Shown: positions 5,401-61,445 of the stretch, piece by piece | Layout of the letters: every line of letters begins with the position of its first letter | Numbering within the stretch: the first letter of the stretch is position 1 | NCBI RefSeq assembly: GCF_000003815.2 | Contig: NC_049994.1 | Span: 17,845,356-17,909,355 of the forward strand | Direction: 5' to 3' | Length of the DNA stretch: 64,000 nt | DNA from: Branchiostoma floridae | Taxonomy: Eukaryota > Chordata > Leptocardii > Amphioxiformes > Branchiostomatidae | Position numbers and translations under genes: made by a program | The notes under the pieces: model-generated | Seen by the model: the letters and a program-made list of their open reading frames with translations, nothing else | Databases searched by the model: none | What the model was told of the DNA's origin: nothing

Positions 5401-8400
5401 TAGTCTTTTGTTCATTATGCTTCGCTGGTGGTAAGCATGCCAGCTTCTAGCTTACTCTGAGAATTATAACACAATATAATTGTGAAATGGACAATGTAAT
5501 TTCAACAGATTTTATATATATAACGTTATAGATAATGAGGACATAACAATGAAGACATCAATGTTAATCAAAGCCAATAGTCTTTTGAGAGTGAAAGCTA
5601 TACTTCTTCCGAAAAAATGACGGCTGGTGGCTTTTTGCCGAGATACCATCTCCCCTCCCGGTGTGTAACCTGGTTATTGTTGGAACCCAAACACTTTCCT
5701 GACCTCGGTGGTGTTTCTTGTCTGTTTCACACAATAGAACCATTAGTCTTTTGTTCATAATGTTTCACTGGTGGTAAGCGTGCCAGCTTCTAGTATACTC
5801 TGAGAATGATAACACAATATAATTGTGAAATGGATAATGTTTTTATTATTCCACAGATTTTGCTCATACTGCTTACTTACAAATGTACTGTAGTATGAAT
5901 AATGATGAGGACATATAACAATGAAGACATTACTGTCAACCAGACAAATAAGATGAATATGAAATATGAATATAAAAAAAGTTAATGAAAACATTTTAGT
6001 TTTATAAAATGAATATGTATGGAGGATTTTTGTTTGACAAATTAGACATAAGACTTACAAGTAGTTGCAAGTGGGCTGAAAAAGCCAGCCAGTGATGGGT
6101 TAAAGTAGTTTGGCCTTAGGCTAAAAGCAGGCAAAAGTCAATTATCCAAAATCACCAGTGTTAAAGTGATTTATCTGTTATTTGTCACATTGATCCATCC
6201 CATAATTGTATCAGATCCGTACAATTTTTGGTTTGTATATGTTTTCACACCTATACATTTGTAGATCCTCTGATACACCTAATGTGGATTCTTATTGTTG
6301 TTGTTTTTGAGGTCCTGAAAATGAGGTCTAGTTCCCTAGAAGTAGTCTTAGGTACTACAGCAATAATAGGTCTACACCCTTTTCCTGAAAGTAGCGTGGT
6401 ATTTTATATGGTGAACTTTGATCCTCGACTTAAACTTAAATCTTGGTTCTACTGCTAGTTCTGGGAGTCCTTCCCCTGGTCATGCCCTGATTGCCTATTG
6501 ATTGTTAAAAAAATGGGAAAAATATATGAGACATTAAACTGCTGTGCACTAGTGCCCCCTAGTGAATAAGCAAAGAACTGCATTCACCATGTCCAAATCA
6601 ACTACAACTTTACTGCAGAGGAGCGTTTAATTCCCCATTTGATACCAGTCACCTGAATGCCTGTTACAATAGGAAACAAACAGGCTTTAACCACCTGTCA
6701 GTACTACTGTTTACTGATGCGTTTATAATGACAGATGGGTTGTACCAAGTCACCCATCAGTATGGGGGGTCATGGCTTGCATGGTCACTTACTGCATGCT
6801 ATTATTTTATAAAATAATTGATAAAGGCTTCAAGTTTGAGTAATTTTCTTAATCTTGTTTAAAAAATAAATGTGTAAGTTCGGTTCATTTCTATGCCTTT
6901 TGATATGTTTTTTTTAAACATCTTTTAAGCCATAAGAGGGGTATGGGTAAGGGTAAGGAATCATTCTCCCTAGAGATTCTATTTTAGCATGTTACCTAGA
7001 CTTTATGTCAATACAAGCCACAAACACCCATTGTCTGCCTCATTTTGGGGCTTTGTGCTAAACAATGAAATGTTCCAACCTGGCACTTGACTGGAGATTG
7101 GGCAGAGTCACTGTTCCAAAGCACAATCATGGGGTCTGTGCCGTCCAGTTTGAAGAGAGAAGTTCATGAAGAACTGTCCTGCAGCATCTGCCTGGAGCTG
7201 TTCACCAGGCCCAAGGTACTGCCCTGTCAGCACACCTTCTGTCAGGACTGTCTACAGGACCATGCAGAGGTTAAAATACCTTTCCAGTGCCCAAACTGCC
7301 GTCAGCAGGTCAGACTGCCATCCCAGGGGGTTGCGGGTTTGCCGGACAGTCACATAGTGGCCAACATGATTGAGAAACTCCAAAAACAAGAAAATCACTT
7401 AGAAGAAACAAGGGAGCAAGCCCAGTCTGAAAACAGGTGCAGTATTCATCCCACAGAGGAGGTCAAGCTCTACTGTAAACAGTGTAACATGCCAGTTTGT
7501 ACTGAGTGTTGTGAAGAAGGCCATGATGGACATCCGACCACAGGCCTTAAAAAAGCTGCACAGGAAAGGAGTTCTACTATCCAGGTCTTGATCAATGAGG
7601 GAAGGAACATCATGGAAAGTTATTTAAGCTTCCTCAAAAGCCTGAGGGAAGAAGAGAAAACCCTGAATGAACAGAAACAGCAGACAGACAACATCATCAT
7701 TCAGGCCTACAACCAAATGGTGATGAAACTTATACAAAGAAAAGACCACCTCTTGTCTGAATCAGGAGAAAAACACACACAAAACTTGGACAAAATACAG
7801 ACTGAAAGGGACCGAGTGTTGGCAGATGTCAATGAACTATCTGCTGCCTGTGATTGCGCAGAACAAGAACTGCAGCTTGGATGGGTCAAGATTCTCAGTC
7901 AGCAAACCGCTTTGACAGAGGTGGTAGGAAAGTACAGAGGAAAAGCAGCACCAACTCCTGTACAAACCCAGCCTGCTGTCTTTCAGCCCACAGACACCCC
8001 AGTGCCAGTATTGGGACATGTGATGGTCCAGTCTCTCCCATCTGCACCGATCCCAGCAGCACCTGCATCTAGTAATGATGCAGCAAGGGGCACAGGTCAT
8101 CACAATGGTAACCAAAAGCAAGGGGAGCATCAACCTCAGAAGTTGTCATTTGGTGGAGAGGGATCAGAAACAGGACAGTTTCAGGGTCCATCCAGTGTTA
8201 CAGTGTCAGGTGAAGGGGAGGTCTTTGTAGCAGACCAAGGGAACCAGAGGATCCAAGTCTTCACCCTACAGGGAACATTTGGGAGAGAGTTCCCAACAGT
8301 CGTTTCAGGTGAAGAGAAGATGGATCCACATGATGTGGATATGGATGGGGAGGGGAACCTGTGGGTGGTTGGGAAGACAGACTCTGCTGGGTTTGCTGTG

Positions 8401-11400
8401 CAGTACAACAAACTGGGCAGGGTGCTCAGGAAGTTTGACCTACAGGAGACAGGGTGGAACAGAGGAGTTGCCGTGGACACCAGGAGGAACCACATCCTCA
8501 TCACACAGACCACAAGAGATAGGGACAACAAACATGGCGAGGTGCAGGTGTACAGGCCAGATGGGACATTTGTAAGAACTGTGGGTCAGCAGCAGGGGAT
8601 GAAGCTTCCACAGTATATCACTGTGGACGGGGAAGGGAACATTCTTGTGTCAGACTGTCAAAGGGACCGTGTCTATGTGTACGACGAGGATGGACAGTGT
8701 CTGTTCTCGCTGTTTGTAGATTTTGAAAATGATGATCAGCTGCATTTGGACTATGCCAGTGGCATCTGTACAGACAGGGCAGGTAACATCATCGTGGCAA
8801 ACACAGGATACAACCGTGTGGAGATGTTTAACAAGACAGGAAAATTCCTCAAACACATCACTACAGACATAATGAGGCCATGTGCTGTTGCCATGGCAAT
8901 ACAGGGACAGCTGGTAGTGACTGATTATAATGGCAGAGTCAGTATATTCCAGAACCTCTGAATCTGAGTCAGGTGATAACATGCATTGGCATAATACCGG
9001 TCATAAGCCTTATACCGGTCGATTAAAAATAGTGGAACTTAAAGAGATCTGCACGTGCAACAATAGTTATTTCTGAGCTGTGCACACTTCAGACATCTAG
9101 GTGTCCAATACATAATTTACAAAGCATCGATAACAATGCATTCGAAGACAACAAGGCCAAAAGTTTTCAGGTCATTTTCGGGGCAGGCGAGCTCGTCGTG
9201 GGACAAACACACTGTCACGTTCATCGCCAGGTTTGTAGATAATAATCACATGTGCTCACGGCACAAGACGAGCATGATTCAACAGCAAGCTTGAATTTCT
9301 TTTGGTGACCTACAACTCGTGTAAAAGTGTGAGGAATCGTTGCATTATCGCCCGGATCTACGACTGAATGGGTCAAATTGAACGTACGCCGCCATTTTCC
9401 CGCCATTTTTAATGCTACGGCCAGCAGTAAAGTTTTACGTCATAGCGGTTGTGACGGACCAAAATTAAATGAAAATTCTTGTCAGTATACGCCCATTTTC
9501 TCATGAATTTTTGTATGCTCATGCAGATTTTTGTTTTGTGCAACTACTAACAGGAAAAAAAGGAACAACAGAGGATGTATAAAGGTACATAGCGGCAGTT
9601 AATTGTGCCGTGTTTCGTTCGACCGGTATAGTGCACCCCCTTCCAACCACGCGCCCGTTCTCCGTGCAATTCCGCGGTGTGTTCCAATTACGATATTATG
9701 TTTTTAGCAGGACCAGAGAGACAAAATAATTTACACAGAAGAAGTGGCAAAGGTAAGCTGTAACAGCAACATGTAACTGGAGAAAATGATGCGTTGATCA
9801 TTTGCCAAATTAGCATTGCTTGAGAAATTGCCGTAAACCGACCGGTATTATGCCAATGGATGTTAATGGAACTTTATCAATCTGTAGACTTGAAACAACC
9901 AGAGGGGCGAGTAAGAACAGAAAGAAACAACATGCCCCCTACCCGGAATCGAACCGGGGTCGGCAGATCACAAATCACGAACGCTATCACCGTCGCCACA
10001 AAAGCACTAGTGCCCTTGGGTAAGGACGATAGGCAGTACTTGAACACCACTGTTACACTACTCCCCCTTTTCTTCAAGATTCGTCCTCGAATCTCCGAGT
10101 TCGACATCCCTGTGTGGCACATCCGCTAGCCTGTTACTCACAGGGTCGGCATGGGAACCAGTGAAACAACCAGAGGGGCGAGTAAGAACAGAAAGAAACA
10201 ACATGCCCCCTACCCGGAATCGAACCGGGGTCGGCAGATCACAAATCACGAACGCTATCACCGTCGCCACAAAAGCACTAGTGCCCTTGGGTAAGGACGA
10301 TAGGCAGTACTTGAACACCACTGTTACAGACTTAACAATTTGAAAACTTCAATTATTAGTGTACAGGTATCATATATCTGTTGTCTTTCATGATAAGATT
10401 TGGGAAGCAAACGTGTATTAACTACCTAGAATTACAGTTTATTTACTTTGAATTACTTATACTTTTAGTCTAAGAATACAAATGGATAGTGGAGTTTGTG
10501 AAGTTTCTTTTTCCAAACAAGGATGATTTTTTCATTTATATGATAAACATATTGTGTGGAATTTTTGTGCAGAAAAGCAAAAAAAAAAAGTTGTACTTCC
10601 AGGAAATCTTATGTAATTTAAGTGTCTGTTTTATTGAGCCCATGAAACATTCCAGATCTGCAGTAACTGTTGTAATATGACACTTGGTTATACAGTCAAA
10701 CCTGCCCCAAAAGGCCTCTTAGGGGACCAATGATATCTGGCGTATATTGACATGTGCGTGGTCACTATGGTTTTTAGTCATGTTTGTGTGTTCTGATGGA
10801 TGTGTATGGATATTTTTATGGTCCCAAGCAAACATGGTAATTTTAGGTCCCCTAGTAGTAGCTTCAGGTACTGTAGCAATACAATGTTGACACCCGCTTC
10901 TTGAAAGTAGTATCGTGTTAGTAATAAATACATGTGTGTGGCATTTTACATTCTGATCTTGAAACATTGACTTACACTTACGCGCTTTTACTACTTAAGT
11001 TCTAGTAGCATTTCCACTGGTCAGGTCCTGATACCCAGTTGATTACTGTTAGTGTTACAAAGTAGATGAGCCATTGAACTGCAGTACACTAGTGCCCCCT
11101 AGTGACTAGCCAAAGAACTGCATGCAGATTTCTACCATACTGTATTCATTACAATAAATAAATGCATTTATCCTTTGTATGTTTCAGAAGAAAACATAAG
11201 ATATAGGAGAGGGAGAGAAAGGAGGGGAATGGTTTATTGTATTTAAAACCAGTTGCAGTGCAAATATCTGAATTGTGGTTTCTTACAATTGTTGGAAGGT
11301 TGAAAGCACTAGTAACATAAAAGCTTGATCAGTTTCAAAAATGCCTTCATTTATAATACAAAATAATGTAGATAGACAAATTCAGAAAAAATAAATAAAG

Positions 11401-14400
11401 AATAGTATTTTGCTTTATCACATCACCATCTTTTAAGAGCAAACAAACACAACATGACCAGTACCTGCAAAGCTCTTTAGTTACTTAATAATCAATCATT
11501 AGTTTTGGGTTAAACCAACCCACACCTCAGTCAAGGGGTGTCTTATTTATCTGGCACCTTGCAGACATGTAGATAGTGCTTTAGGTCTACATTCTTGTAG
11601 AAATACAAATTAAAGCTTTTAGTTTTACCTATATATTTAAAGTTTTCAACAAGCTACCTAGAAGTGGAACAAAACAAACATGAAATAGTACATTAAGTCA
11701 TTAAATTGGCCTCAGGCTTTAGTGAATAAGTTTGTCCCAAATTGAAAAGCAAACATGTTCCACTAGACTTTGGCTTCAGCTTCGCTGCCACACATTAAGT
11801 AGAAAAAGTTCATTTGTTGTATCATGGGGTCTGCGGCATCTAGTCTAAAGAGAGAAGTTCATGAAGAACTGTCCTGCAGCATCTGCCTGGAGCTGTTCAC
11901 CAGGCCCAAGGTGCTGCCCTGTCAGCACACCTTCTGTCAGGACTGTCTACGGGACCTTGCAGAGGTTCGAGTACCCCTACAATGCCCAAATTGTCGTCAG
12001 CAGGTCAGGCTGCCACCCCAGGGGGTCGCAGGTTTGCCGGACAACCGCATAGTGGCCAACATGATTGAGAAACTCCAAAAACAGGAAAATCACTTAGAAG
12101 AAACAAGGGAACAACCCCAGTCTGATAACAGGTGCAGCTTTCACCCCACAGAGGAAGTCAAGCTCTACTGTAAACAGTGTAACGTGCCAGTTTGTATTGA
12201 GTGTTGTGAAGAGGGCCATGATGGACATCCTACTACAGGTCTCAAAAAAGCTGCACAGGAGAAGCGTTCTACGGTCCAGGCCTTGATCAACGAGGGAAGG
12301 AACATAATGGAAAATTACTTAACCTTCCTTAAAAGTCTAAGGCAAGAAGAGGAAGCCCTGGTTGAAAAGAAACAGCAGAGAGACAACAGCATCATTCAGG
12401 CCTACAACCAAATGGTGCAAAAACTCACAGAGAGAAAAGACCTTCTCTTGTCTGAATCACAGCGAAGTCACAGAGAGAACTTGGAGAAAATACAGACAGA
12501 AAGTGACAGAGTGTTGGCAGATGTTAATGAACTGTCTGCTGCCTGTGATCGAGCAGAACAAGAACTGCAGCAAGGATGGGTTGAGATTCTCAGTCAGCAA
12601 ACAGCTTTGACAGAGATGGTAGGAAAGTACAGAGGAAAAGCAGCACTAACTCTTATACAAACCCAGCCTGCTATCTTTCAGCCCACAGATACCCCAGTGC
12701 CAGTATTGGGATGCATGACGGTCCAGTCTCTCCCATTTGCACAAATCCCTGCAGCACCTGCACCAATCCCAACAGCATCTGCACCAATCCCAGCAGCACC
12801 TGCATCTAGTAAAGATGCAGCAGGGGGCAGGGATCATCACTATGGCAACCAAAGACAACAGGAGCATCAGCCTCAGAATGTGACATTTGGTGGAAGGGGA
12901 TCAGGAGCAGGACAGTTCAATGGTCCATATGGTGTTACAGTGTCAGATGAAGGGGAGATATTTGTAGCTGACAAGGGGAACCAGAGAATCCAAGTCTTCA
13001 CCCTGCAGGGAACGTTTGTGAGACAGTTCCCAACAGTTGTATCAGGTGAACAGAAGATGGTCCCCCGTGATGTGGCCATGGACGGGGTGGGGAGCCTGTG
13101 GGTGGTAGGGAGGACATATCAGGATGCTGAGCTTGCTGTGCAGTACAACAAACATGGCAGGGTGCTGAGAGAGTTTGACCTACAGAAGACAGGGTGGATG
13201 AGAGGAGTTGCCGTGGACGCCAGGAGGAACCACATCCTCATCACACAAACCACAGGAGATGGGGACAACCCACATGGTAAAGTTTTGGTGTTCAGGCGAG
13301 ATGGGACACTTGTGAGAACTGTGGGTCAGCAACAGGGGATGAAGTACCCATGGTACATCACTGTGGATGGGGAAGGGAACATACTTGTGGCAGACTGGGA
13401 CAATCACTGTGTCTATGTGTACAACGTGGATGGACAGTTTCTGTTCCAGTTTGGAGGTGAGGGAAGTGGTGAAGGTCAGCTGAAGCATCCCCTTGGCATC
13501 TGTACTGATAGGGCAGGAAACATCATTGTGGTAGACTATGACTGGGGAAACAGCCGTGTGGAGATGTTTGACAAGACAGGAAAATTCCTCAAACACATCG
13601 CTACAGACATGGAGGGGCCAAGGGCTGTTGCCATGGCACCACAGGGACAGCTGGTAGTAACTGATGATAAAGAGCTTCAAGTCAGCATATTCCAGAGCTT
13701 CTGAATCTCAGTGAGGTGATTAACAGCCTTAGTCAATCTATTATAGACTATCATTATCAACTTGAAAAACTGGAATTATTATGGCCTCACTTGCTTTCAT
13801 TACACTTGTACAAGTCCCGTACAAGTCCTGCAAAATGAGATTTTGAAAAAGCCTTATGGCTATGCTACAGGAAATAAGACAATTGGAAAGGAGAAAGCTC
13901 TTTTAAGGAATGAGTAATGAACTAATATAATATATAATTAAGGCCATACCAATTTAATTTGTTGGTTCTCGGATTTTTTCATGAAAAATATGAAGCGACA
14001 GGGCGAAAAAAAAAAAAAAAAAAAAAACTTCTCTGATGGCAAAGCCATTGCTGAATCTGGCCATGGGGGCTCTCGTATCATACTCACTGAGACACTAACG
14101 GTACAGTAAGTGCTACCGGTACATACATTGCTATTTTCGTATGTCATTTTCACGATAATTGATTTTATTGATTTCTTTCAGTTTACCGAATTGTACTAAA
14201 ACATTAGAATTATGGTTATTGATAAAAGGTGACATTGTAATTATGAATTTTATATGTACCATCCTGGTTTGATTCAATTGGAAACAACAGTCTGAAAATG
14301 CAGTCTTCATTTTTGTCTTTTATTCATGGAGGTCAAAAACAAAGTGTCCATCTTACAGTAACTGAAACTTATCAACAAACCCCAAGGGGAACTCAAAATA

Positions 14401-17400: not shown

Positions 17401-20400
17401 CACTTACAATACAGATTGACACCCCTTTCCTGTGAGTAGAGTAGTACAATACATGTGTGTGTTGCGGCATTTTACATTCTGACCTTGAAACATTGACTTA
17501 CACTTACATCGTGATTCTATAGTTCTTGCAGCATCTCCCCTGGTCAGCCTCTGATTCTCTATATCTGTTGATTGTTACAAAATGGATGATCCATTAAACT
17601 GCAGTACACTAGTGCCCCCTAATGACTAAGCAAATAACTGCATGCAGATTTCAACCATACTGTATTTGTTAGTTCGTTATTTTTTGTATATTTGAGAAGA
17701 AAACATTAGATATGAGGGAGGGAGTTACAGACAGAGAGAGAGGTGGACTGGTTTATTGTATTTAAAACCAATTGCAGCACAATTGTTAGAAGGCTGAAAG
17801 CACTATAACATAATATGAGCTTGATCAGCAAAAATGCCTTCAATAATAAATAGACTAATTCAGAAAAAAAGAAGTAAAGAAGAGTATTGCTTTATCACAT
17901 CACCATATTTTAAGAGCAAACAAACACAGCATGACCAGTACCTGCAAAGGTGTTTAGTTACTTAATATCAATCATTACTTTTGGGTCAAACCAACTCACA
18001 CCTCAGTCAAGGGGTGTCTAAATTTTATATGGCAACTTGCAGACAAGCAGAAAGTGCTTTAGACCTACATTCCTATAGAAATGAAAATTAAAGTTTTTAG
18101 CTATTTGTTTTCAGTTTCTAACAACCTGCCTAGGAGTAGAATAAAACAAACATGAAATAGTTCATTAAGTTATTAAGTAATGGTCTCAGGCATTAGTCCA
18201 TCCCAAAAACAAACATGCTCCTCTAGACTTTGACTTCAGCTGTGGCTACCACATCTACATTGTACATAAGTAGGAAAAGTATACTTTTTTGTATCATGGG
18301 GTCTGCACCATCCAGGTCGAAATTGAAGAGAGAAGTTCATGAAGAACTGTCCTGCAGCATCTGCCTGGAGCTGTTCACCAGGCCCAAGGTGCTGCCCTGT
18401 CAGCACACCTTCTGTCAGGACTGTCTACGGGACCACGCAGAGGTCCGAGTACCCTTGCAGTGCCCAAACTGTCGTCAGCAGGTCAGGCTGCCACCCCAGG
18501 GGGTCACAGGTTTGCCAGACAGTCACATAGTGGCCAACATGATTGAGAAACTCCGAAAACAGGAAAAACATCTAGAGGAAACAAGAGAGCAAATCCAGTC
18601 TGGAAACAGGTGCAGCTTTCACCCCACAGAGGAAGTCAAGCTCTGCTGTAAACAGTGTAACATGCCAGTTTGTAGTGAGTGTTGTGAAGAAGGCCATGAT
18701 GGACATCCGACCACAGGCCTTAAAAAGGCTACACAGGAAAGAAGATTGACAGTCCAGGCCTTGATTAATGAGGGGACGAACATCATGGAAAATTACTTAA
18801 GCTTCCTCAAAGGTCTGGGGGAAAAAGAGACAACCCTGAATGAAAAGAAACAGCAGACAGACAACAGCATCATTCAGGCTTACAACCAAATGGTGCAGAA
18901 ACTCACAGAGAGAAAAGACCACCTCTTGTCTAAATCGGGGGAAAACCACATGGAAAACCTGGACAGAATACAGACTGAAAGAGACAGAGTATTGGCAGAT
19001 GTCAATGAACTGTCAGCTGCCTGTGATCAAGCAGAGCAAGAACTGCAGCAGGGATGGGTCGAGATTCTCAGTCAGCAAACTGCTTTGACAGAGGTGGTAG
19101 GAAAGTACAGAGAAAAAGCAGCACCGACTCCTGTACAAACCCAGCCTGCTGTCTTTCAGCCCACAGACACCCCAGTGCCTGTATTGGGACATGTGAGGGT
19201 CCAGTCTCTCCCATCTGCATCAATCCCAGCAGTACCTGCACCAATCACGGCAGAACCTGCACCAATCACAGCAGAACCTGCACCAATCACAGTAGAACCT
19301 GCACCAATCACAGCAGAACCTGCACCAATCACAGCAGCACCTGCATCTAGTAATGATGCAGCAAGGGGCACAGGTCATCACCATGGTAACCAAACACATC
19401 AGCCACAGAAAGTAACATTTGGTGAAAGTGGATCAGGAACAGGACAGTTTTCGTATCCAGTTGGTGTTACTGTGTCAGATGAAGGGGAGATCTTTGTGGC
19501 AGACAGGGAGAACCAGAGAATCCAAGTCTTCACCCTGCAAGGAACATTTGTGAGACAGTTCTCGACAGTCGTGTCAGGTCATCATCATCATATCTTGCCG
19601 CTCCAAGTCCCAATCCAACAGCGGGCCACGTCGTTGGCCGCCCTCAGATCACTGTCAGGTGAGAAGAAAATATACCCAGATGATGTGGCCATGGATGGAG
19701 AGGGGAACCTGTGGGTGGTGGGGAGGACACGCTTTGCTGCTTATTTTGCTGTGCAGTACAACAAACTGGGTGAGGAGCTGAGGAAGTTTGCTCTACAGAA
19801 AACAGGGTGGTACAAAGGAGTTGCCGTGGACACCAGGAGGAACCACATCCTCATCACACAAGCCACAGGAGACGGGGAAAACAATTTAGTTTTGGTGTTC
19901 AAGCCAGATGGGACACTTGTGAGAACTGTGGGTCAGCAGCAGGGGACGATGCATCCATGTTATATCACTGTGGATGGGGAAGGGAACATTCTTGTTTCAG
20001 ACATGAGAAATAACTGTGTCTTTGTGTACAACAAGGACGGACAGTTTCTGTTCCAGTTTGGAGGTTTGGGAAGTGGTGAAGGTCAGCTGGACTGGCCCCA
20101 TGGCATCTGTACAGACAGGGCAGGTAACATCATCGTGGTGGACTGGGGAAACAGGCGTGTGGAGATGTTTGACAAGACAGGGAAATTCCTCAAACACATC
20201 ACTACAGACATGAGGAAGCCATGGGCTGTTACCATGGCAACACAGAGACAGCTGGTCGTTACCAATAGGGAAAAGAAGAGTGTCAGCATAATTCAGAACT
20301 TCTGAATCTGAGTTAGGTGCTAACCAAACTCAATTGATCTGTAGACTATTAATTTACAGACTTTGTACTACAAATTTACTGCAGTGTTTGTCATAGTACA

Positions 20401-23400
20401 TTTAATAATATTTACATTCACAAAGCAAACTTTTTGTACTACAAACCAACATCCAACAATACAGAATTTTGATATACGTAAAAACTTCATAATTCCAACG
20501 GTGTCGTATAACCCTGTACATTGACCTACATGTATCTGCCTACAAGTTACTACAACAAATGTGCTGTCTAAAGCAAAGGACTCACTGATCCAGGGTAAAA
20601 ACTGTACACTACAGTGATTAAACTTATTATAAGGTACTCAGAACAAACTACTAGTACTTTAGGCCATGAGGGGTCATGTTAGTCTTCTGTATAGCCACAG
20701 TGGTTCGGGTGTCAGGGGAGTAGCAACACCTGCGTAGCCTAGGTCAAGTAAATCATGTCAATGACCCATATAGCCAGCCACCCAATGGCATAACACATCC
20801 GTCTGTTGGAAAATTATTATTTTTTACTTAGTGTAGCAAAGCAGAATCCTACTAATGTTTGTCTTTATCATTCAGTCAACCCATGAGTCCCTGTTTATGG
20901 TGATGCTAAGAACATTCTACATGTGCAACCAACAAGTCTTGTTGGAAAGGTTAACAAAGTATTTTTTATTTAGAATGTTTCCAATGTTTGTCTTATTCAT
21001 TTAGCTAACTCACAAGCTAGTCTAGCATTCTACATTTTCCCCCAGAAACAGAAATGTTGACAGTTAAAAGTTTGATATCAATTTAAGTCAAGAAAATTAA
21101 AAATACAACAGAAGTCTTCTAACTCCAATCTTTAATGCCACAAAACATAACACTTCTACCAGGGCTGTCTTTAGGACCCGTCCCTGTCCCCCGAGATGGA
21201 AATTTGCTGCTTACGACAGACAAAAATTTCACCTTGTCCCCCCAAAAGAGTCCAAACTTCATATCATCAAAAATATTCAATATATTTTTGTATTTATTTA
21301 TTTTTCTAGGGTAAAATAGATGAAATAAAGAAAATAAATGAATTAAATAGATCAAATATGTATAAGCTTTATTATAATGACAGATTTAACAACAAAAATA
21401 TGACAGACATATTAATTTTAATTGCATCAAATTTTGCCACCTTTGTAATGCACCAGTCATTGATCTGATCTTCATGAAGTGTGGCACGGTCAAATCACGA
21501 GGTGTTTCTTCTCAGTGGCTATTGTTTACGACTCCGCCCACCCGATATTCATGTCCCACAAGTGGAGATTTTTCATGCAGTTTTGGACCATCGTGGTGAC
21601 TCAGAGTCTTAAAACATCCAAGGCACTACTCATTTTTCACCTGGGTGACCTCACCTCATCTAGTCCCATCCTCATCTAGAGGGTCAGGGACAATGGTTGC
21701 CTCCAGCACCAGCTTCCTCCATCCTTCCCTGTTCTTTGCCTTCTGTTTACTTGAGTGAAGTGAGGAAATTCCTGTACATGTAAAGTGCCTTTCCCAAGAG
21801 CACAATGTTGGAGCGTTTCAGGGGACTGGAACCCAGGACCTCTGAGCTCTCTGCAAACACACTACTAGTACTGTAACTGTTACACTTCATGAATATATCA
21901 CTAGCATGGTATCCTCAGGTTGACTATTCTGCTGTTCTATACTAAAGCATTTGTGTGCCGGTTTATTTTATGGCATCTTCAAGGTTTCACCACAAAGTAC
22001 CAAAGACTACTTTTACATCCATGTCAAACTTACTAACCCCTAAACAGCACTTGAGGTTTGAGGCAACAGAGTTATAAATAATGGTTGAAAATAATGGTAT
22101 AGTCCTTGTTTATGCATAAACTTGTCACAAATGCCATTGCCCTCCTGAAATCTGTTTGCCACACAGAATAAAAAAGGATCCAAATTAACTGCAACTTTAC
22201 TGGAGAGGAGCGTTTAATTCCCCATTTGATACCAGTAGCCTGAATGCCTGTTACAATAGGAAACAAACAAGCTTTTACCACCTGTCAGTACTACTGAGAG
22301 CAAGACGGAACTCTGGTGGAATAATATTTCTGTTTAAGAAGCAGTATAGCAAGTTTATTACAAAGCTAGACAGCAAATCAGAAGATATATTGTGGGTAAA
22401 AATAGGCAAAGGACTATTTAACACCAATAGAGATACTTATTTAGCTACAGTTTACATCAGTCCTAACAGATCTAATATCCACAACAACAGAATGTATGAC
22501 ATATTTGATACTCTAGAGGACGAAATATCAATATACAGTAGACAAGGAGAGGTAATAATTGGGGGGGATTTCAATGCCCGGATAGGGGACCTGAAAGACT
22601 ACATAGCAGGCGACTATCAAATTGACAGCCTTCCCGAAAACTACGATTTCGATCACCCGTTCCACCGTAACAACATGGATTTAGGCAGCCCTTCTCCCTT
22701 TGGTAAAAACCTAATCGACTTATGCATCAACAGTAAAGTCAGAATCTTAAATGGCAGGACACCTGGAGATGTATTAGGGAAACCCACAAGTTATCAGCCT
22801 AACGGCTCTAGTGTGGTCGATTACGTCCTGGCAAGCGAAACAATTCTCTTACGCAAAAGCTGTTTCTTTCACGTCCACCCCCTAACCCCAATTTCAGACC
22901 ATTGTAAACTGTCCCTAATTCTAAATAGCAACATTAGACAACTCAATGAACAGACTACTGATACCTTGTCTGCCCGACCCCACTACAAATTTGTATGGAA
23001 TGATGACTCTAAAGAAAGGTTTACGGACATAGTAAACAGCACAGAATTCTCTCGTACTATAGACAGTTTTAACAAAAGAAGTTACGAGACATCCCCAAGC
23101 TCAGTCGAAAATGCACTAAATGATTTTATAGTACCCCTACAAGAAGCAGGCAAACAATCACTAACATTACGATGCATGAAACAAAGAAAACAGACCCGTC
23201 ACAAACCCAAACCCAAGAAATGGTTCACTACTACATGTAACACCACCAGAAGAAACTTAAAAGACTTAGCCAAATTGTTATCAAAAAATCCCCGGGACCC
23301 GTTTATCCGAGGTCAATACTTTAAAAAGAAAAAAGAATACACCAGGCTAATCCGGAAAACAAAAAAGGATTACAAAAACAGTATTTTCCAACAAATTAAC

Positions 23401-26400
23401 TACTCATCCGCCAACAACCCCTCAGAGTTTTGGAACCTAGTAAAACAGTTAAAAACAGAAGACTCTAGTCCAACAGAAGAAACAATTGACAAACAAACAC
23501 TCCATACGTACTTCCAAGGATTATACGGAAAAACTAAGTCCAACGATCCAGAAACCGATAACCCATTCCAATCACAGATCCGTAACAAACTAGTAGAATT
23601 AGAAAACAGAGCTGCAATTTACAACCCCTTAGATTCCGAGATCCATCAGAACGAAATTAGACATTAAGCCATCTCCAAATTAAAGAATAACAAAGCGTCA
23701 GGTAACGACCTTATACTGAACGAAATGCTAAAATGCGCAGCACATATCCTTACATATCCATTAACTAAACTGTTCAATTTAATCCTTTCAACCGGGCACT
23801 TTCCCCAACAATGGCGTGAAAGCCACATTGTACCTGTACATAAAGGCGGTCAAAAAGATGACCCGAACAATTACAGGGGAATTTCTGTAATAAGCTGCCT
23901 TGCCAAATTATTTACAACAATAATGAATACTCGTCTCACCGAATATATAGATGATCACAACCTCATTTCCCCCAACCAGACTGGCTTCAGAAAGAATTTC
24001 GGAACTAACGACAACATCTTTGTTATTGACACACTGATATCAAAATACACCAACACCAACAGACGCCTCTACACCTGCTTTATAGACTTCAGAAAAGCTT
24101 TTGACTGCGTCTGGAGAGAAGGTCTACGTTACAAACTACTTAACCTGGGCATAGGCGGCAAGTTCTACAAATTGATTAAATCCATGTACTCTAATCCGAT
24201 GACATGTGTTAAAACTCCTACCGGCCTTACACCACTGTTTACAACTGACAGAGGTGTAAGGCAAGGATGCAACCTCAGTCCTACTCTTTTCAGCTTATTT
24301 ATAGATGATTTAGTTAAAGATTTAGATACCCCCGACTGCGACCCACCCTCCCTACACCACCTCCTCGTTTCTTGTCTACTTTACGCAGATGATGTAGTAC
24401 TACTTTCAGAGTCTGAAACCGGCTTACAATGTGCCCTTGACAGGCTTCATTCCTTCTGCGAAAAATGGAAACTGCAGGTGAACCTAAAGAAAACTAAAGC
24501 CGTGATCTTTAACAAATCAGGGAGACTCCTCAAGAACATAAATTTCTTATTTGGCGTAGATAACATCGAAATCGCAAACTCCTACCCCTACCTAGGCCTG
24601 ACGTTGTCCTCGTCAGGTACTTATTCCTTAGCCAAAAAGAATCTGTCTCTAAAGGCACGTAAAGCTGTATTCGGCCTCAAACCTCTCACTCTCTCAACGA
24701 TGTCCCCCAAGACTCTACTTAAGCTATTCAATACGTGTATTAAGCCCATAATGTTATATGGTAGTGAGATTTGGGGTATAGACTGTGGAAAAGATAACTG
24801 CCCAGTGGAAAATATCCAAACCCGCTTTTGTAAAAATATTCTTGGCGTGCACAGGAATTCCTGTAACTCCGCATGTAGAGCAGAACTCGGAGTCTATCCA
24901 ACAGGCATAGATATAGCAATCCGCATGGTTAAGTACTGGCTACGCCTTAAACAGTTAGATTACTCTACACACCCTTTACAAATAGACGCACTACTCTGTC
25001 AACAAAATGTACCTTAAAGTTTAAACAATCATAAGAAAACTTGGCTCCAACATGTAAAACAAATACTTGATGATAATGGTTATTCCTATCTATGGAACTA
25101 TGCTCACTCTAGAATAGACAACAAACATATTTGTACATTGTTAAGGAAAAGACTGTCAGACGTGTATGTCCAAACCTTTTTCCAGCAATTGTCTAAAGAT
25201 AACGGCAAATTAAGATTTTACAAACATATCAAAACCGAATATGCCATGGAAACCTATCTATACCAGAACGACGCTGACAAGAGATCCAATGTATGTAAGA
25301 TAAGAATCAGTGCTCACTCACTAGAGATAGAAAAGGGTCGTTATAAAAAAGTGCCAGTTCAAGATAGATTGTGTAAATACTGTGCGACGGATGCAGTGGA
25401 AGATGAAATACATTTTATATGTAACTGCCCCCATTATGAGGACGAAAGAAACAACCTTTTTGACACAATCAAAACGTTATTTCCAACTTTTCACCAGTTA
25501 GTAGACCTCAAAAAAACTATATTTCTGTTAAAATCACAGAACCCACTAATCATTAAAGAAGTGGGACTTTTCATCAGCCACTGCCTCCAAAGAAGAAGTC
25601 AAACCACTCAGTAAAGAAGTAGAAGCATGTACATAGATAGCTGACGTGTGTGTATTTAGAATAGACACTTGTTACTTTTCACTGTCTGTATCATTGCAAT
25701 TAGCCTACGGGCATGGATTTGCAAATAAATAAATTTTAAATTTATTATTTCGCTATAACTACTGATGTCTTGATAATGAGTGGTGGGTTGTACCAAGTCA
25801 CCCTTCAGTATGGGGGTCATGGCTTGCATGGTCACTTGCTGCATGCTGTTATAAAGTATTGATAAAGGCTTCAAGTTTGAGTAAGTTTTGTTTGTTATTT
25901 AATAAATAAATGTGTAATTTTGGTTCATTTCTATGCCATTTAATAACTTTTTTTTACATCTTTTAAGCCTTAAGGTGGTTTGTTTACATATTTGTTCCAA
26001 CACCATATATCAGGGAAACAATCTCCCAAGAGATCCTATTTTAGCATGTTACCTAGTCGTTAAGTCAACACAAGCCACAAACACTCATTGTCTGCCTCAT
26101 TTATTGGTGCTTTGCCCTGAACAATCATGTTCCAACCTGACACTTGACTGGAGATTGGGTAAAGTCTCTATTCCGGAGCACAATCATGGGGTCTGCACCG
26201 TCCAGTTTGAAGAGAGAAGTTCATGAAGAACTGTCCTGCAGCATCTGCCTGGAGCTGTTCACCAGGCCTAAGGTGCTGCCATGTCAGCACACCTTCTGTC
26301 AGGACTGTCTACGGGACCATGCAGAGGTTAAGATACCCCTCCAGTGCCCAAACTGTCGTCAGCAGGTCAGGCTGCCACCCCAGGGGGTCGCAGGTTTGCC

Positions 26401-29400
26401 AGACAACCACATAGTGGCCAACATGATTGAGAAACTCCAAAAACAGGAAAAGCATTTAGAGGAAATAAGCAAGCAAGCCCAGTCTGGAAACAGGTGCAGT
26501 TTTCACCCCTCAGAGGAAGTCAAGCTCTACTGTAAACAGTGTAACGTGCCAGTTTGTACTGAGTGTTGTGAAGAAGGCCATGATGGACATCCTACCACAG
26601 GCCTTAAAAAAGCTGCACAGGAAAGGAGTTCTACAGTCCAGGCCTTGATTAATGAGGGAAGGAACATCGTGGAAAATTACTTAAGCTTCCTCAGAAGTCT
26701 GAGGGAAGAAGAGAAAACCCTGAATGAAAAGAAACAGCAGACAGACAACAGCATCATTCAGGCCTACAACCAAATGGTGCTGAAACTAAGAAAGAGAAAA
26801 GACCACCTCTTGTCTAAATCAGGAGAAAACCACACAAAAAACTTACATAGAATACAGACGGACAGGGACAGAGTGTTGGAAGATCTCAATGAACTGTCTG
26901 CTGCCTGTGATCGAGCAGAACAAGAGCTGCAGCAGGGGTGGGGCGAGTTTCTCAGTCAGCAAACTGCTTTGATAGAGGTGGCAGGAAAGTACAGAGAAAA
27001 AGCAGCACCAACTCCTGTACAAACCCAGCCTGCTGTCTTTGAGCCCACAGACACCCCAGTGCCAGTATTGGGACATGTGAGGGTCCAGTCTCTCCCATCT
27101 GCACCAAGCCCTGCAGCAACTGCACCAATCCCAGCAAAACCTGCATCCAGTAATGTTGCAGCAGGGGGCAGGGGGCATCAACATGGTAACCGAAGACAAG
27201 GGGAGCATCAGCCTCAGAAGGTGACATTTGGTGAAAGGGGATCAGGAACAGGACAGTTTTGGGATCCAGTTGGTGTTACAGTGTCAGATGAAGGGGAGAT
27301 GTTTGTAGCAGACAGGGGGAACCAGAGAATCCAAGTCTTCACCCTGCAGGGAACATTTGTGAGACATTTTCCAACAATCGTGTCAGGTAAAGAGAAGATG
27401 TACCCATGGGATGTGGCCATGGACGGGGAGGGGAACCTGTGGCCATGGGTTGTTGGGGGAACAAAGTCTGCTGACTTTGCTGTGCAGTACAACAAACATG
27501 GCAGGGTGCTGAGGACGTTTGACCTACAGCAGACAGTGTGGGACAGAGGAGTTGCCGTGANNNNNNNNNNNNNNNNNNNNNNNNNNNNNNNNNNNNNNNN
27601 NNNNNNNNNNNNNNNNNNNNNNNNNNNNNNNNNNNNNNNNNNNNNNNNNNNNNNNNNNNNTTGAAATGTCTGTCTTATTTCCGTGTATACATATTTATGT
27701 ACATTGTGTATGTAAATCAAAAGTTAAAACATGAGTATTGCCTTTGATTTAACTTTTTTTAAAAGAAAAATGAATGGATTGAAATTATGCTTTTCCCCTT
27801 TACTGTTAGGTTAAAAGTCCCTATCTTTCCATTTTTTTTAAAACTAGGGTTTATCAAGTTTTATATCTACGCACGATTTATTCTATTTCAACTCCGGTTT
27901 TCCCTAAATTAGCATAATAGCATGTGAGAAACAAGAAATAGAATCAGAATTGCCCAAGCTGCACCTGCTCCCAAACGGAGGTGTCTACTTGTATAGTCAG
28001 CCCTGATGTTCAGGACAGTAATGTTGTAGGATGTTGGTCTGTGAGCTGAGAGAAGTTACATATAAAAGTAAAGGTGCTGGGAAAAGGACATGCAGGGTGC
28101 TGTCTGTGCACGGTAAGTGAGTGGATATAAACGCTTATAAGTTCATCTTTATCTGCAGGGTAACCGAATGTTATATTTCCTTGTTTTTAAAAACAGGGTA
28201 TTTGTTATACTGGGATATTGAGTTGAGGGACTGTGGTTTCAAATTGCAATATTTTTAAAATGGTGTTTAAAACCACCATCCGTCGACTTAATATCCTTGA
28301 ATACCATTTTAGGGGTATAGCTTACCCCTAGGACGAACTTTTTCACTGTCATTCAGCACAAAATTTTCTCACCTCGAATTTTCAGGTTTATCTGAACGTG
28401 TATGATTATCATATTTGATATTGTCACCATCACCTTTGACAGATTTTTTTCTTGCACAGTGGACTACTTCTAGCCTTGACTTCATTTTCATTATACTTCA
28501 GTTCAAAAGAAAAAGAAAAGTTACAGGGATATATTTTTACTGACAATGGTTGTTTATATTTTATTACAAGGACCTTATTATTTTTGCTTTCATTGTTACC
28601 ATTTAAAAAAGTTACTGAAACGATTAGCCCAAGCAGATTGTAACAAGATTTACTCATTGACAAGTTAGCCTTTAGCGCCTAGTAAGTAGAATTTCAAGGC
28701 TCATTTTCTAGTTTGTATTTGACCGTACGAAAGACGCTGTGCTTTTTGTTACCTAAGTATAGCTTCTTCCAATCTGATGTCCTCTGCTTATTCTCATTTG
28801 AACCTTATTCTCACCAAGAAACTTGTGAACTATGATTCAAGTGATGATATGATATATTATGCAAGACCTATAGTTAAAGCTTGTTTAATTTGTTTCCTGC
28901 TCTTTTTTAAGTGTTGTATCAGAACTGTGCTTCAGATCAGAAAGGGCAAGGCCTGACATTTTTTGGTTCACAGAAGAATGCAGAGCTTCATTAATATGAA
29001 TACGTAGCATCTGGGGACTAGATTTTCTTAGAAATTGTAACTTTCAAGAATGCAGCCTAGTATTGGGGTCAGTTGAGTGTTGAATACTGAGTACACTCTT
29101 ACACTGATCCTTGACATTATAGAGTTAATAATGGTACTTCCTACTTTTTCAGCTTAAGCAAAAGGTACGTTGATGAAGGTTTAAGACATCCAGGTAAGAA
29201 GATATGCCCAATAGCAATTGAATCATTTTTGAAATGGTCAGGCGTTTCAGGTAGAAATCCACTACCTTTCATCAGTGACACTAAAGAGATCTTGTTGGAG
29301 AGCAGATTTTTATATCCTAACGTTAACTATGAATTAATATGCAAAAGAAAATCTAGTTTGAGACAAATTTTTGTGTTGGGAGTTACTGTTCAACTTCTTC

Positions 29401-56288: not shown

Positions 56289-59200
56289 CTAGGTTGCTCT
56301 TTTGTGATCACCAATGTTGCTCCAGGCCAACCCCAAGTTGTGTTGTATTGTTGCAATGTCAGGATGTGCTGAACCCTGACCATAGATACTCTCGGCCATC
56401 TGAAGTGCCTGTTTGAGGTAGCTGATTGCTTTGCTGTGATCATGAAGATCGTTGTAGGCTTGCCCAAGGTTGTTAAGTGATTTTGCAATTTCAGGATGTG
56501 CTGTCCTCTGGCCGTAGATACTCTTGTACATCTGTAGTGCCTCTTCATAGTAGGTGATAGCTTTCCTGTATTCTCTCAGATCATGACAGACACATCCCAG
56601 GTTCATTAGTGATGTTGCATGTGCTGTGCCCTGACCATAGATACTCCTGAACATCTGCAGTGCTTGTTCAAGATAGCTGAATGCTTTGCTGTAATCACCA
56701 TGTTGACGCCAGACTTCCCCAAGACCGTTGAGTAACATGGCAATCTGAGGATGTGCTGTATCTTTACCATTGATACTCCTGCACATCTGCAGTGCCTGTT
56801 CAACATAGCTGATTGCCTTTCTTTGATCACCCTGATGATACCAGACTGACCCTAGACTGCTGAGTGAGGTGACAATTTTAGGATGTGCTGTGCTTTGACC
56901 ATAGATAGTCCTATTCATCTCCAGTGCTTGTTCATGGAAACTTATTGCTTCACTGTAATCAGCCAGGTAGTCATAGGCTGCGCCAAGATCATTGAGAGTC
57001 TCAGCAATATGAGGATGTGCTTTATTTTGGCCATAGATGCTCTTGGACATCTGTAGTGCCTCTTTATGATACCTGACTGCTGTCCGGTAGTCACCAAGAG
57101 AATGCCAGGCATTTCCCAGGCTGCTGAGTGTCTGTACAATGTCACTGTGATCTGAAGTCTGACCATAGATACTGCGGTACATCTGAAGTGCCTCACTCAG
57201 CTCATTGTAGCTGATGGCTTCCCTGTAATCACCAAGGGAGGTGAGGGTTTGACCAATATTGACAAGTGACATGGCAATGTCAGGATGCTTTGTACCATAG
57301 ATGTGTTTTCTTTTCTGCAGTGCCTGTTCATGGTAGTTTAAAGCTTTTCTGTGATGACCCAAGGAAGCCCAGGTTGCCCCTAGGTTATTGAGTAGTCTAC
57401 CAGTGTCAGGATGTGGTGTGTTTTTGCAATAGACACTTGTATGCATCTGCAGTGCCTGTTCGTAGTAACTGATAGCTTTATGTTCTTCACCCAGTTCAGC
57501 CCAGGCTATCCCCAGGCTGTTCAATGACATGGCAATGTCAGGATGTTCTGTAGACTGACCATAGATACTCCTGTCCACCACTAGTGCCTGTTCATAGTAG
57601 CTGATTGCTTTTCTACAATCACCTAGACTACGCCAGACCATCCCCAGGTTTCTAAGTGATGTTGCAATGTCTGGATGTGCTGTACTGTGACCATAGATGC
57701 TTCTTCGAATCTGTAGTGCCTGTTCCAGGTAGTCTCTGGCACTATCAAAATCACTCAACGCTTTCCACATCATCCCAAGGTTGTTGAGTGAACTGGTAAT
57801 GCTAATATGTTCCTCTCCATAGATACTCCTGTACATCTGCAGTGACTGTTCAAGATAACTGATTGCTTTTCTATACTCCCCAAGCGCACCATAGGCTGCC
57901 CCAAGCATGCTGAGTAAGGTAGCAATGGCAGCATATGTTGCACTCTCCCCATATATTCTCCTGTAATTATGTAATGCCTCTTCAAGGTAGCTGATTGCTT
58001 TTCCGTAAGCACCCCTTTGGTAGTATGCCCTTCCCAAGTTCATTCTTGACATTGCGATGTCTGGATTTGTATTACTCTTATCAGAGGACAATGCTAATGT
58101 CAATGCCTCTTCTAGGTTGCTAATTGCCCCCTGGTTATCTCCAATTCTACTCAAAGAACCTCCAAGATCATTAAGCAGCCTAAATTTTGTAGCATAATTT
58201 CCTTTAGCTTCCCTAAGAGCTACCCGGTAATAGCTTATAGCCTGACTATATTTGCATAGTTCATGGTACATCATTGCTTTTATTGATGCTGAATTTGCAT
58301 AGAAATCAGATAATAGATCTGGAGTTGTGTTTTCTTCAGACCACTCTGAAAGGATAACTCGAAGATGAAGTGCTGTGTAATAATATCTGAAAATCTGTTT
58401 TTCATTTGGTAGATAAAAAATCTGTTTCAGTGCACTTGTTTGCACATCATTGGCCTGAAGGGATGATTCCTGTCCTTGCTTTTCTGTTTCAATTGAAGCT
58501 AAGACAGACAAGCTTTCCTTCTGTCCACCATTTGCAATGTATGTTCTGAGCCTGAGTTCTGCTGAGATGCTGGTAAGCACTGTAAGGTGGTGTGCATTGT
58601 TGGGACTGATTACTTGTTGGTTTTCCATTTCTTCTATTGTCTCCCAAACTGACCTAGGAGTGATGTGCGAAGACAACGCCAAGCAGTCAACTGCTACAGC
58701 TGGGAAGCGATAGATTTCTTTCTTGATATCAATCAGCCTAGCTGTGAGTTGGTCTATGTAGATGTTACTGTTTTTCTTCATAGTCTCCTGTGCCAGTTGT
58801 TGAGCCATTTTACCGTCATTAGCTTGCAGAATCCTCACTGTGATGGCCATGTATGTGTCAATCAAACCCTGGTCCCCTGTTATCAGGCAGGGGTTTCTCA
58901 AGATGGTAGCAAGATGATATCCTTCTCTAAGATACAATGTGATATCCTTTTGTAGTATTGAAACCATCTTTTCTGGGGTGCAGATGAGTTCACTTACAGT
59001 TTCCTGCCTGCCCAGTGGCGTCTTGCTTGCCTTTGGCATGGAGCCATCAAATGCTAACCCACGTGGTGTAACAGAGTCATAGTACCAGTTGTCAAGGGGA
59101 TTCTTGGAGTAGAAGTCATTGAGAGATTTTATTCCCAGTGCTGGGAGAATAGTTTCTCCTAGGTTGATCACCCTGAGGTGTAGATAGTGGGTGAGGTTGC

Positions 59201-61445
59201 GGAAATACACAAGATACTCTTCTTTTTCTTCATCTACCAAGATAGCAAACTCCAGGTCTGAGTACGGAGTTACCAGTCCTGTGGCCTGTGAACCCAAGCC
59301 TACCAGGGCATACTTACAGGGAGGGGGACCCATTAACCCAAGACACTCATCTACAAGCAGGCTGATGAACTCTTTCCTTTGCTGTGCAATTGTCTCAAAC
59401 AACTGTCTGACAGCCTGAGCTCGTTTTGCCTCTATCTCTCTAACACATGGGTCATCCTCATCATGTACATAGGGATCCAGCTGCTGGTCAATGGTTTCCA
59501 TCTCCAGCTTGATCTGGCCCCGCATCTCCTTCAGCTGTTTCTTGTGTTTTTCTGTATCATCTTGGCTAACATTGCAATCAAAGTCTAGGATACATCTCAA
59601 AAATGACTTCTCTACATCTGTAATAGCTGTTTCTATATTACAGTTGAGGACTTGATCCTCTGACCTGGCTATTGCTGCATTGTAGAGTGCTGCAGCTTTG
59701 ACAAAGTCTCCCCCGTCTCCTGTCTGCTGACCTCGCTTACTGTAGACCTCCCCCAACTTGCACAGGGGCTCCACCTCTCTCTGGTACTGCTGGGCTGTGG
59801 GGTCTAAATGTAAATGTAAATGGTGTTGAATACATAGATGGTATTTTTAAAAGACATCTAACTTCATAGAACAACACAAGGTTATGCAATCAGAATTGGC
59901 TGGCTGTGTGTTAATGCAAAATCTGAATTTTGAAGAAAAGTAGCATCAGAGCTGTACCTCTGACATGTACCGTCTTGAGTGCAGCTGCAAAGTGCCTCTC
60001 TGCTGAGTCCAGGTCTGCCCTAGCAAGGAAGGTTTTACCTTTCTTGATGTCATCTTGGAACTCACTAACAAATGCAAGGAATCAATAAGTTATAGACCTG
60101 AATGAACACAGACAGCATAAATGAACTTTTTCATATGCAAAGTCCAGGTCTGACATATCAACGAATTTAGTCTTCAACCAGGAAGATGAATCTGTTACAT
60201 TCATTTGGGTTTATTTAACTTTTTTTGGTAAAGTTTATAGTACGAAAGGGTTTGCTACCTTGTTGTGTCTAGTTTGAAAGGATGGTCCTGATTCTCCTGA
60301 ATGGTGCCAGGTCTTGTGATGTTCCCCAGATCCTGCCTCGTGTGCATGTGTGCTTTCCTTTCTGTTTGTCTTGAGCTTCTTGGTGCCTTTTGCTACAGAA
60401 ATTAATCCACACTTTTCAACATTCAAAAGTGATTATCACTGTGTAGACATAATGGTACATGCATTAAAGAACCCTGCTCATTTATCATTTGCCCTGGTCA
60501 GGGTATAATCTTTTTCTACTTGAAATACTTGGAACAGAAGCACAATGTATACTTACATGCATATAGTAAATTACAAGAATTTTAGGGAAAGGGGGGATAT
60601 ACATCCTAGTTTACATACTTGTCTAGTAGTGTCTTTTTTTCTGAATTGACCTTTAAATTTAATCTTTCATTTTAAGCAAAAATATGAATTAATGTTCCAG
60701 TTGCTTGTTTGACTCAACTACAGCTACTCACCTTTCTCACTGCCTGCCTAATGTTGTTCAAGGTGCATCTAACCAAGTACGAGACACGATGTTGTAGAGT
60801 CAGTTTTGTCCCAGGATCCCGACATCTTGTCATGGCCTTGTTGTACATGGCAGCTGCCTTGGAGAACTGGAATACATCCGAGGTCTTCTTGCCTTTCTTA
60901 AGGTAGAAATCTCCTAGTGATTTTAAAACCTCAACTTCCAAGAACACGTCACTGTTCCCAATTGCAGTCAATGTTTCTGTGTAAGTCTCCTCAACTGAGT
61001 GCCAGGGTTTAAGGACTCTTCTGTCCAGTTTGTCACAAATCTCAGCCGCTCTTAAAACATTGCTATCAGCAGTGCTCCAGTAGTCCGGAGACAACCACAG
61101 AAACTTTGAACTGTACCCCTGCAACAGTTGTTTGGAGAGTTTCTCCATGTAGCCGATACGATGTTGAAGTGTTTCTCTCATGTCTGGATCTGTGCAGCGC
61201 AGTAGTGCAGCAGCATACAGGGCAGCAGCCTTGTCAAACTCTGCTGAATCTTTACCAAACTTGCCTCTCTCAAGACGCAGGTCTCCAAGACTTTTCAGGA
61301 CTTCTACCTCCATGAAGAGATCCTGGCTAAAAATGGCTTCTCTCAGTGCCTTATAATAACCAACTTTTTGGCCATGGTTACTCTCTACACATAGCTGAAA
61401 GCCCTGTAGCTTGTTTGCCAAGCTGGTCATATTGATGTCAGACAT
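56289..61445 (-). CDS. Nucleotidyltransferase-like domain fused to 15 kinesin-light-chain-type TPRs
   Basis: Four exons on the minus strand were assembled by eye: 61445-60732, 60392-60259, 60064-59958 and 59803-56289. Junction phases are 0, 2 and 1, all with GT..AG, giving 1489 residues. Residues 1-340 contain three helical repeats ([51 protein letters not shown]), each followed by a KAAA(L/M)Y helix. Around residues 480-505 [20 protein letters not shown] has the GS...D-x-E pattern of DUF294/GlnD-like nucleotidyltransferases (S490, D501, E503), with a later [18 protein letters not shown] segment. From about residue 840 come fifteen units of about 44 residues ([19 protein letters not shown] ... 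DIATSLNNLG). The substrate is unknown. The start Met at 61445 is the first of the exon; another Met follows at residue 6. It lies inside chimaerin intron 10 if that gene continues past 64 kb. Confidence 0.88.

Follow-up and report, generated by a model that had tools for sequence, protein, structure and literature searches.

What kind of element is the 438-bp non-coding unit that lies on the minus strand of a 64,000-nt stretch of the Branchiostoma floridae genome (assembly GCF_000003815.2, contig NC_049994.1, positions 17,845,356-17,909,355 of the forward strand; hereafter the window), and by what means could so small a unit be transcribed, primed and mobilised? Two identical long terminal repeats (LTRs) enclose a short interior in this unit, and each LTR carries a tRNA-like box. 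An original prediction, made from the window sequence, had drawn attention to it as an LTR-type element. The analysis presented here indicates that it is, very probably, a terminal-repeat retrotransposon in miniature (TRIM) of the Helenus type, i.e. a non-coding element whose two LTRs each carry a promoter module of tRNA origin and whose primer is tRNA-Glu; it would be mobilised by enzymes of a Gypsy (Ty3) family and transcribed by RNA polymerase III (pol III).

The two direct repeats (167 nt each, with TG..CA ends) are 100% identical. In the element sense, the LTR (TGTAAC...GTTTCA) is followed by a C and the primer-binding site (PBS; TGGTTCCCA..), the remaining interior, a hairpin, a polypurine tract (PPT; AAGAAAAGGGGGAGTAG) directly ahead of the 3' LTR, and the second LTR, the whole being bordered by a 4-bp target site duplication (TSD), GACT (Table 1). 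The LTR pair, the 104-bp interior, the PBS, the PPT and the GACT duplication had all been named in the original prediction, and each was confirmed as real. The genome (513 Mb in 431 contigs) was then searched with the whole element, the interior and the LTR, the best 40 of 975, 493 and 974 candidates, respectively, being scored; the copy counts are lower bounds and the copies read represent the best-scoring part. At least 52 matches to the whole element were found, including the window's own, and other full-length copies are up to 99% identical, which makes the element more than a product of chance. Among 30 interior copies, several of them at loci already met in the other searches, 29 sit between same-strand LTRs, whole or partial, the exception being L041, on the far side of which there is an inverted 34-nt LTR piece. 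An exact 4-bp TSD at the TG..CA ends was detected in 48 of the 66 copy clusters, the search having extended outward from the match ends by up to 14 nt, and none of the 28 TSDs of an earlier copy set extended to 5 bp. The two-LTR relatives with a TSD measure mostly 420-462 bp as single units, and composites reach 962 bp. The LTR also occurs alone: the 4-bp flanks matched in five of the first seven single LTRs (L076, L077, L078, L085 and L091; not L084 or L092), and in 8 of 11 after the addition of L100, L101 and L103, which carry the duplication, and L102, which does not. A predominance of single, tailed units or of copies lacking the interior had been named in advance as evidence against an LTR element; since the interiors lie between LTRs and single LTRs carry TSDs, this was not what the best-scoring copies revealed, and the proposed search did recover the 167-bp LTR both as pairs and as solo LTRs with 4-bp duplications. 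Judged by the copies read, the TG..CA ends, the 4-bp duplications, the LTR-interior-LTR order and the solo LTRs show that the element moves as an LTR element.

The LTRs fall into several types (A, A2, B, C, C2, D, E and F), which share their ends and differ in their inner parts. Different types may be combined within one element, as in L013 (B-I-A, where I is the interior), L034 (C-I-B), L033 (A-I-C) and L063 (D-I-B, with B partial), and arrays of the form LTR-I-LTR-I-LTR with one outer duplication were found in L010 and L030. Such mosaic elements and arrays may reflect copying from co-packaged or tandem RNAs.

Helenus was named in 2024 for TRIMs with tRNA-like LTRs, 311-1263 bp in size, which include animal families with 4-bp TSDs (Kojima, PMC10886601). 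The window element shares with them a short non-coding LTR structure (438 bp), box B in the LTR, a tRNA-complementary PBS, a PPT and the 4-bp TSD. The earlier suggestion that a tRNA-bearing animal counterpart of the plant TRIM Cassandra would be a new type is thus superseded, this type having already been described as Helenus. Bivalve families with tRNA-Glu primers are mentioned in the same study, and Gypsy was proposed there as the mobiliser of animal Helenus; the primer and the Gypsy partner were both inferred from PBS matches. Under Chordata, its Table 1 contains fishes only, the coelacanth included, and Branchiostoma, amphioxus and lancelet do not appear in its main text. In a limited literature search on Helenus, this study was listed together with one paper on a butterfly genome. 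According to PMC7215508 and PMC10886601, Cassandra also has a pol III-type promoter in its LTRs and forms LTR-interior arrays, but its LTRs carry 5S rRNA sequence. A relationship with Cassandra was rejected, no 5S match having appeared in the Rfam searches: no Rfam family reached the gathering score in the window, and at E values up to 10 the three matches obtained within 9401-10900 belong to other families and lie outside the element.

The perfect B box claimed for each LTR by the original prediction was borne out, since GGTTCGATTCC, at LTR position 103, matches GGTTCRANNCC at 11 of 11 positions. Two differing versions of the T arm with its B box occur in LTRs that are otherwise alike. The box A criterion applied to Helenus (TRGCY + YGG) finds an imperfect counterpart in the window LTR, and the type D LTR carries TGGCCGAACGG. 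Among the relatives, the type C LTR of L038 scored 19.1 bits with the Rfam tRNA model RF00005, i.e. under the 29-bit cut-off. ARAGORN with loose intron settings was also tried, and its output was discarded as noise. An apparently older, decayed relative was observed near a young copy in L041 (2270-2640); its A box reads TAGCCTAGTGG, and in the PPT and the start of the LTR it is similar to the element.

The identity of the primer could be read from tRNA copies captured within the family. In L020, the two LTRs are separated only by a C, a complete antisense tRNA-Glu(CTC) (RF00005, 56.2 bits) and AG, and in L016, L027, L037, L038, L055 and L090 a tRNA-Glu copy, whole or cut, lies at the LTR end plus one base. 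A genome search with tRNA-Glu(CTC), in which the best 40 of 133 candidates were scored, yielded 14 matches that stop at the gene end and 26 that continue across the CCA positions. These 26 comprise five loci already known (L020, L027, L037, L055 and L090), 19 newly read and two unread. Of these 19, 14 adjoin an LTR of the window-element family (truncated in L111 and L127), three adjoin other LTRs (L114, L121 and L125), and two (L116 and L117) resemble genes, with TGC instead of TGG; CCA is absent from the tRNA-Glu gene used as a control (L128). At least 21 loci of the family (the five known, the 14 new, L016 and L038) thus carry a CCA-bearing antisense tRNA-Glu at the primer position, and in L020, L055, L109, L110, L111, L112 and L113 the copy extends to the first base of the tRNA. 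The PBS of the window element matches the tRNA-Glu 3' end at nine contiguous positions. These captured copies show that mature tRNA-Glu(CTC) has served the family as a primer of reverse transcription.

Some of the tRNA-bearing units have features of integrated elements. In L109, L115, L118 and L126, an LTR tip of 5-29 bases that ends in CA comes after the tRNA copy, and directly behind this tip stand the four bases of the left flank (CATT, GTTG, CGAC and AAAG, respectively); outer duplications also border L020 (TCAG), L055 (ATAC) and L090 (GAGA). The outer duplications and CA tips argue that some LTR-tRNA units integrated as such. The junctions in L020 and L090 (AG followed by TG on the left, CA followed by C + TGG on the right) look like the ends of unintegrated DNA. 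Plus-strand synthesis begins at the PPT and proceeds through U3-R-U5 into the attached tRNA. In human immunodeficiency virus type 1 (HIV-1), methylated A58 normally halts plus-strand copying of the primer tRNA after 18 nt, and a tRNA lacking this modification is copied to its 5' end (PMC13191261); primer tRNA sequence is also known within HIV LTR-LTR junctions (PMC5618025). In the amphioxus family, the plus strand may sometimes have copied the entire primer tRNA, past the usual modified-base stop, with the products being integrated as well. If so, part of the primer was without m1A58, and a share of the tRNA-Glu of this animal would lack the modification. The copying of the tRNA resembles the over-extended plus-strand strong-stop DNA and 2-LTR junctions of HIV-1, but the cases in these two sources come from in vitro reactions, cell culture or unintegrated DNA, whereas those of the window-element family reside in assembled chromosomes, some with TSDs. 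A limited literature search found no account of captured full-length primer tRNAs in LTR retrotransposons. The composite L027 (159-1120) has the order A2(1-45)-D-tRNA-A2(46-168)-I-D-I-A with a single outer ATAG duplication, an LTR and its tRNA copy being lodged inside another LTR, at the palindrome described below.

The three tRNA copies that adjoin other LTRs point to Gypsy-type elements of the same genome. In L125, an integrase core follows on from the tRNA copy (rve, E 4e-7, some 2 bits under the curated cut-off), and in the adjoining L144 an open 361-residue frame contains Integrase_p58_C above the cut-off and rve below it. This integrase stretch lies between matches to the 512-bp LTR of the L129 family; such matches are also paired 7.8-7.9 kb apart on three contigs (best 40 of 106 candidates). 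L114, which belongs to the L129 family by its LTR, consists of the LTR, a full tRNA and CACGTTTCA between ACAA duplications. A second, rare LTR type, L131 (12 matches, all 11 candidates scored), is 332 bp long and begins with TGTAACAGTG, as the window element does. Among its copies, L121 contains a partial tRNA-Glu copy, and L141 has the PBS and is followed by an integrase-like C-terminus (L142) below the cut-off. These Gypsy-type elements (L114/L129 and L125/L130/L144, and probably L121/L131/L141) resemble the window element and its family in LTRs that start with TGTAAC, in the tRNA-Glu PBS and in having tRNA-Glu copies, entire or partial, behind the LTR; in contrast to the window element, their LTRs measure 332 and 512 bp and contain AATAAA, and they encode integrase.

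The likeness extends into the interior. Three copies of the L129 family continue directly past the LTR with TGGTTCC(C/T)ACAC.., and beyond the PBS they have TGTGAATAAC where the window element has TGTGAGTAAC, TGTGARTAAC standing at an equal offset past the PBS in both. Before the 3' LTR, the L129-family copies show ATTTGAGGACAAAT and then ..GGGGGAGGTAG immediately ahead of TGTAAC (with one base changed in one copy), and the window element shows ATTCGAGGACGAAT and ..GGGGGAGTAG at the same boundary. On the PPT (3') side, a similarity as high was obtained in 2 of 2000 shuffles, whereas 2000 random 50-mers of the window yielded none; for the part ahead of the PPT taken by itself, the figure was 11 of 2000 shuffles. 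Both have a hairpin with an AGGA loop ahead of the PPT, and its stem differs by a paired change (T-A versus C-G). One L129-family copy is bordered by a CTGC duplication, yet its LTRs end in TATA, not CA. On this comparison, the window element is shown to resemble, at the end of its interior, a Gypsy family that shares both its genome and its primer. The common primer, the similar PPT side and the same aberrant products suggest that the TRIM most likely obtains its enzymes from Gypsy, in line with Kojima's proposal on animal Helenus, and the family described here would supply the reverse transcriptase and the integrase.

How the element is transcribed is a separate question. The sole sense-strand TTTT (T4) of the window LTR (LTR 55-58) is located just upstream of the A-box-like stretch. 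In a survey of 117 LTRs covering this site at 63 loci (often two per element, and hence not independent), T4 was exactly in place in 101; the other 16 are L038 and L102, in which it is shifted by an indel, and 14 LTRs of type D. All 93 non-D LTRs retain it, the two indel-shifted ones included, though type C differs widely around the site. Five LTRs (L009, L019, L022, L039 and L092) have a further T4 elsewhere. Directly before T4 there is a 10-nt palindrome, GCACTAGTGC, GCTCTAGAGC, GGCTTAAGCC or GCTCTTGAGC, the last with a central mismatch; among the 101 LTRs with T4 in place, 87 have five pairs and 14 have four. The window contains 1030 10-mers directly before TTTT, and the perfect palindromes among them are the two LTR copies only, four pairs being found in nine. 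It is plausible, on the arrangement of these motifs, that the palindrome and TTTT together form a pol III terminator. In the 5' LTR, pol III would start slightly upstream of the A box, and it would stop at the TTTT of the 3' LTR; the transcript would run across this T4 near its start and again in the 3' LTR. The resulting RNA would be about 290 nt long, and the repeat at its two ends would span only about 10-18 nt. For Cassandra RNA, an 18-bp terminal repeat is reported in PMC10886601, which mentions terminators for Cassandra only. In L102 (approximately 430-600), a solo LTR, a short insert lies between the palindrome arms, giving GCACTAACGGGGGGTTAGTGC before TTTT.

The palindrome may instead serve as a self-complementary site at which RNA dimerises or a dimeric protein acts, a possibility that deserves attention although we would not rate it as probable. 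Self-complementarity is kept in GCACTAGTGC, GCTCTAGAGC and GGCTTAAGCC and in four of the five pairs of GCTCTTGAGC, including central pairs that are impossible in a hairpin, and the predicted dimers (-16 to -24 kcal/mol) are more stable than the hairpins (-1.4 to -3.7 kcal/mol). However, the palindrome directly adjoins the T run, its arms are separated by the insert in L102, and the pair-counting test is weak, since 41 of 500 shuffles reach the score and the type D rows are shifted in the alignment. Another explanation is that the TRIM is transcribed by RNA polymerase II and that its tRNA-like part is the inert fossil of a short interspersed nuclear element (SINE) inserted in the LTR. This we consider unlikely: the 271-nt sense strand of the LTR + interior unit of the window element contains no AATAAA, ATTAAA, AGTAAA or TATAA, whereas AATAAA is present in the related Gypsy-type LTRs L131 and L129/L130, and the B-box motifs persist as two arm versions in LTRs otherwise similar. 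It gains from the A box of type A, which is imperfect (at best 10 of 12 positions in the window LTR, at LTR 57 and LTR 60), from the failure of any tRNA model to report the window element (neither ARAGORN nor Rfam, even at E values up to 10, found a tRNA in it) and from the spread of type D, in which T4 is present in 10 of 24 LTRs and the other 14 have TTTA or TTTC yet were copied. The notion that the unit is simply a tRNA-derived SINE with a chance tandem duplication, which its box B and small size might suggest, is scarcely tenable and was rejected in view of the 4-bp TSDs directly at the TG..CA ends, of single LTRs as well as LTR pairs, the PBS and PPT, the same-strand LTR-interior-LTR order and the captured primer tRNA.

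The Helenus-type TRIM remains the preferred reading, and the imperfect A box, the silent tRNA models and the T4-less type D LTRs also count against it, together with several further results. As ARAGORN and Rfam report no tRNA, the element is called tRNA-like because of its B box, its T arm and its relatives. No 4-bp duplication was found in 18 of the 66 copy clusters. In the duplication re-check, which covered 13 new LTR-tRNA loci (excluding L120, which has an interior), only four had a CA tip with a duplication; L111 was ambiguous and eight had none, the LTR start being poorly set for L113 and L122 among these. The ordinary PBS diverges from tRNA-Glu(CTC) past 9-10 nt. On the 5' side, the similarity to Gypsy did not reach significance in the form tested (690 of 2000 shuffles reach it), and only the first ten in-register bases match, at nine positions. 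Exactly one T4 per 271-nt unit is the commonest chance outcome, obtained in 42% of dinucleotide shuffles, and the idea that a single T4 is improbable in itself was dropped for this reason; T4 as an absolute need is weakened by type D. A more far-reaching proposal, which we put forward tentatively and do not regard as the probable outcome, is that the family forms a germ-line chromosomal archive of complete primer-tRNA reverse transcription, in which tRNA-Glu run-through was repeatedly integrated, including stand-alone LTR-tRNA-LTR-tip units with TSDs, and that the palindrome-TTTT would act as a position-dependent pol III terminator defining a minimal R.

The coordinates of the element are given in Table 1. 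The window also contains four tandem paralogues encoding RING, B-box and NHL-repeat proteins on the plus strand (7087-8961, 11824-13704, 18230-20305 and 26144-27664), the first three recognized by Pfam and the fourth by repeat match, and the element sits between the first and the second. Pieces of a non-LTR retrotransposon, with endonuclease and RVT_1 frames, are located at 22390-25614 (plus strand), likewise between two NHL paralogues. On the minus strand, 56289-59774 is an open frame of 1161 residues with many TPR repeats, nephrocystin-3-like, beneath which there are 132-bp DNA repeats.

Table 1. Positions in the window of the miniature LTR retrotransposon and its parts
Feature	Position	Strand	Basis
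Whole miniature LTR retrotransposon (TRIM, Helenus type), 438 bp	9891..10328	-	repeat comparison, genome matches
5' LTR (element sense), 167 bp, TGTAAC..GTTTCA	10162..10328	-	direct-repeat comparison
3' LTR, identical to 5' LTR	9891..10057	-	direct-repeat comparison
Interior, non-coding, 104 bp	10058..10161	-	sequence and interior copies in genome
Primer-binding site TGGTTCCCA..	10143..10160	-	9 contiguous matches to captured tRNA-Glu 3' end
Polypurine tract region AAGAAAAGGGGGAGTAG	10058..10074	-	sequence and Gypsy comparison
Hairpin GATTCG-AGGA-CGAATC ahead of PPT	10078..10093	-	form similar in Gypsy copies L146, L148, L150
Palindrome GCACTAGTGC, 5' LTR (LTR 45-54)	10275..10284	-	
TTTT, 5' LTR (LTR 55-58), sole sense-strand T4 in 5' LTR	10271..10274	-	
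Palindrome GCACTAGTGC, 3' LTR	10004..10013	-	
TTTT, 3' LTR, proposed terminator	10000..10003	-	
A-box-like stretch TGGCGACGGTGA, 5' LTR, 10/12	10258..10269	-	consensus match
B box GGTTCGATTCC, 5' LTR, 11/11	10216..10226	-	consensus match
B box, 3' LTR	9945..9955	-	
Target site duplication GACT, left	9887..9890	.	
Target site duplication GACT, right	10329..10332	.	

What is new here is the tRNA-Glu primer shown by captured copies, the Gypsy-type families with the same primer and products, and the palindrome-TTTT arrangement. The element adds a host to those given in the main text of Kojima 2024 (PMC10886601), and it provides direct sequence evidence for the primer and for a likely Gypsy partner, identified in the same genome, which goes beyond inference from PBS matches. 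The captured tRNAs make the over-extension of plus-strand DNA, known from work on HIV, visible and countable in chromosomes, and the palindrome-T4 arrangement opens to direct test the way in which terminally redundant RNA may arise from a pol III LTR.
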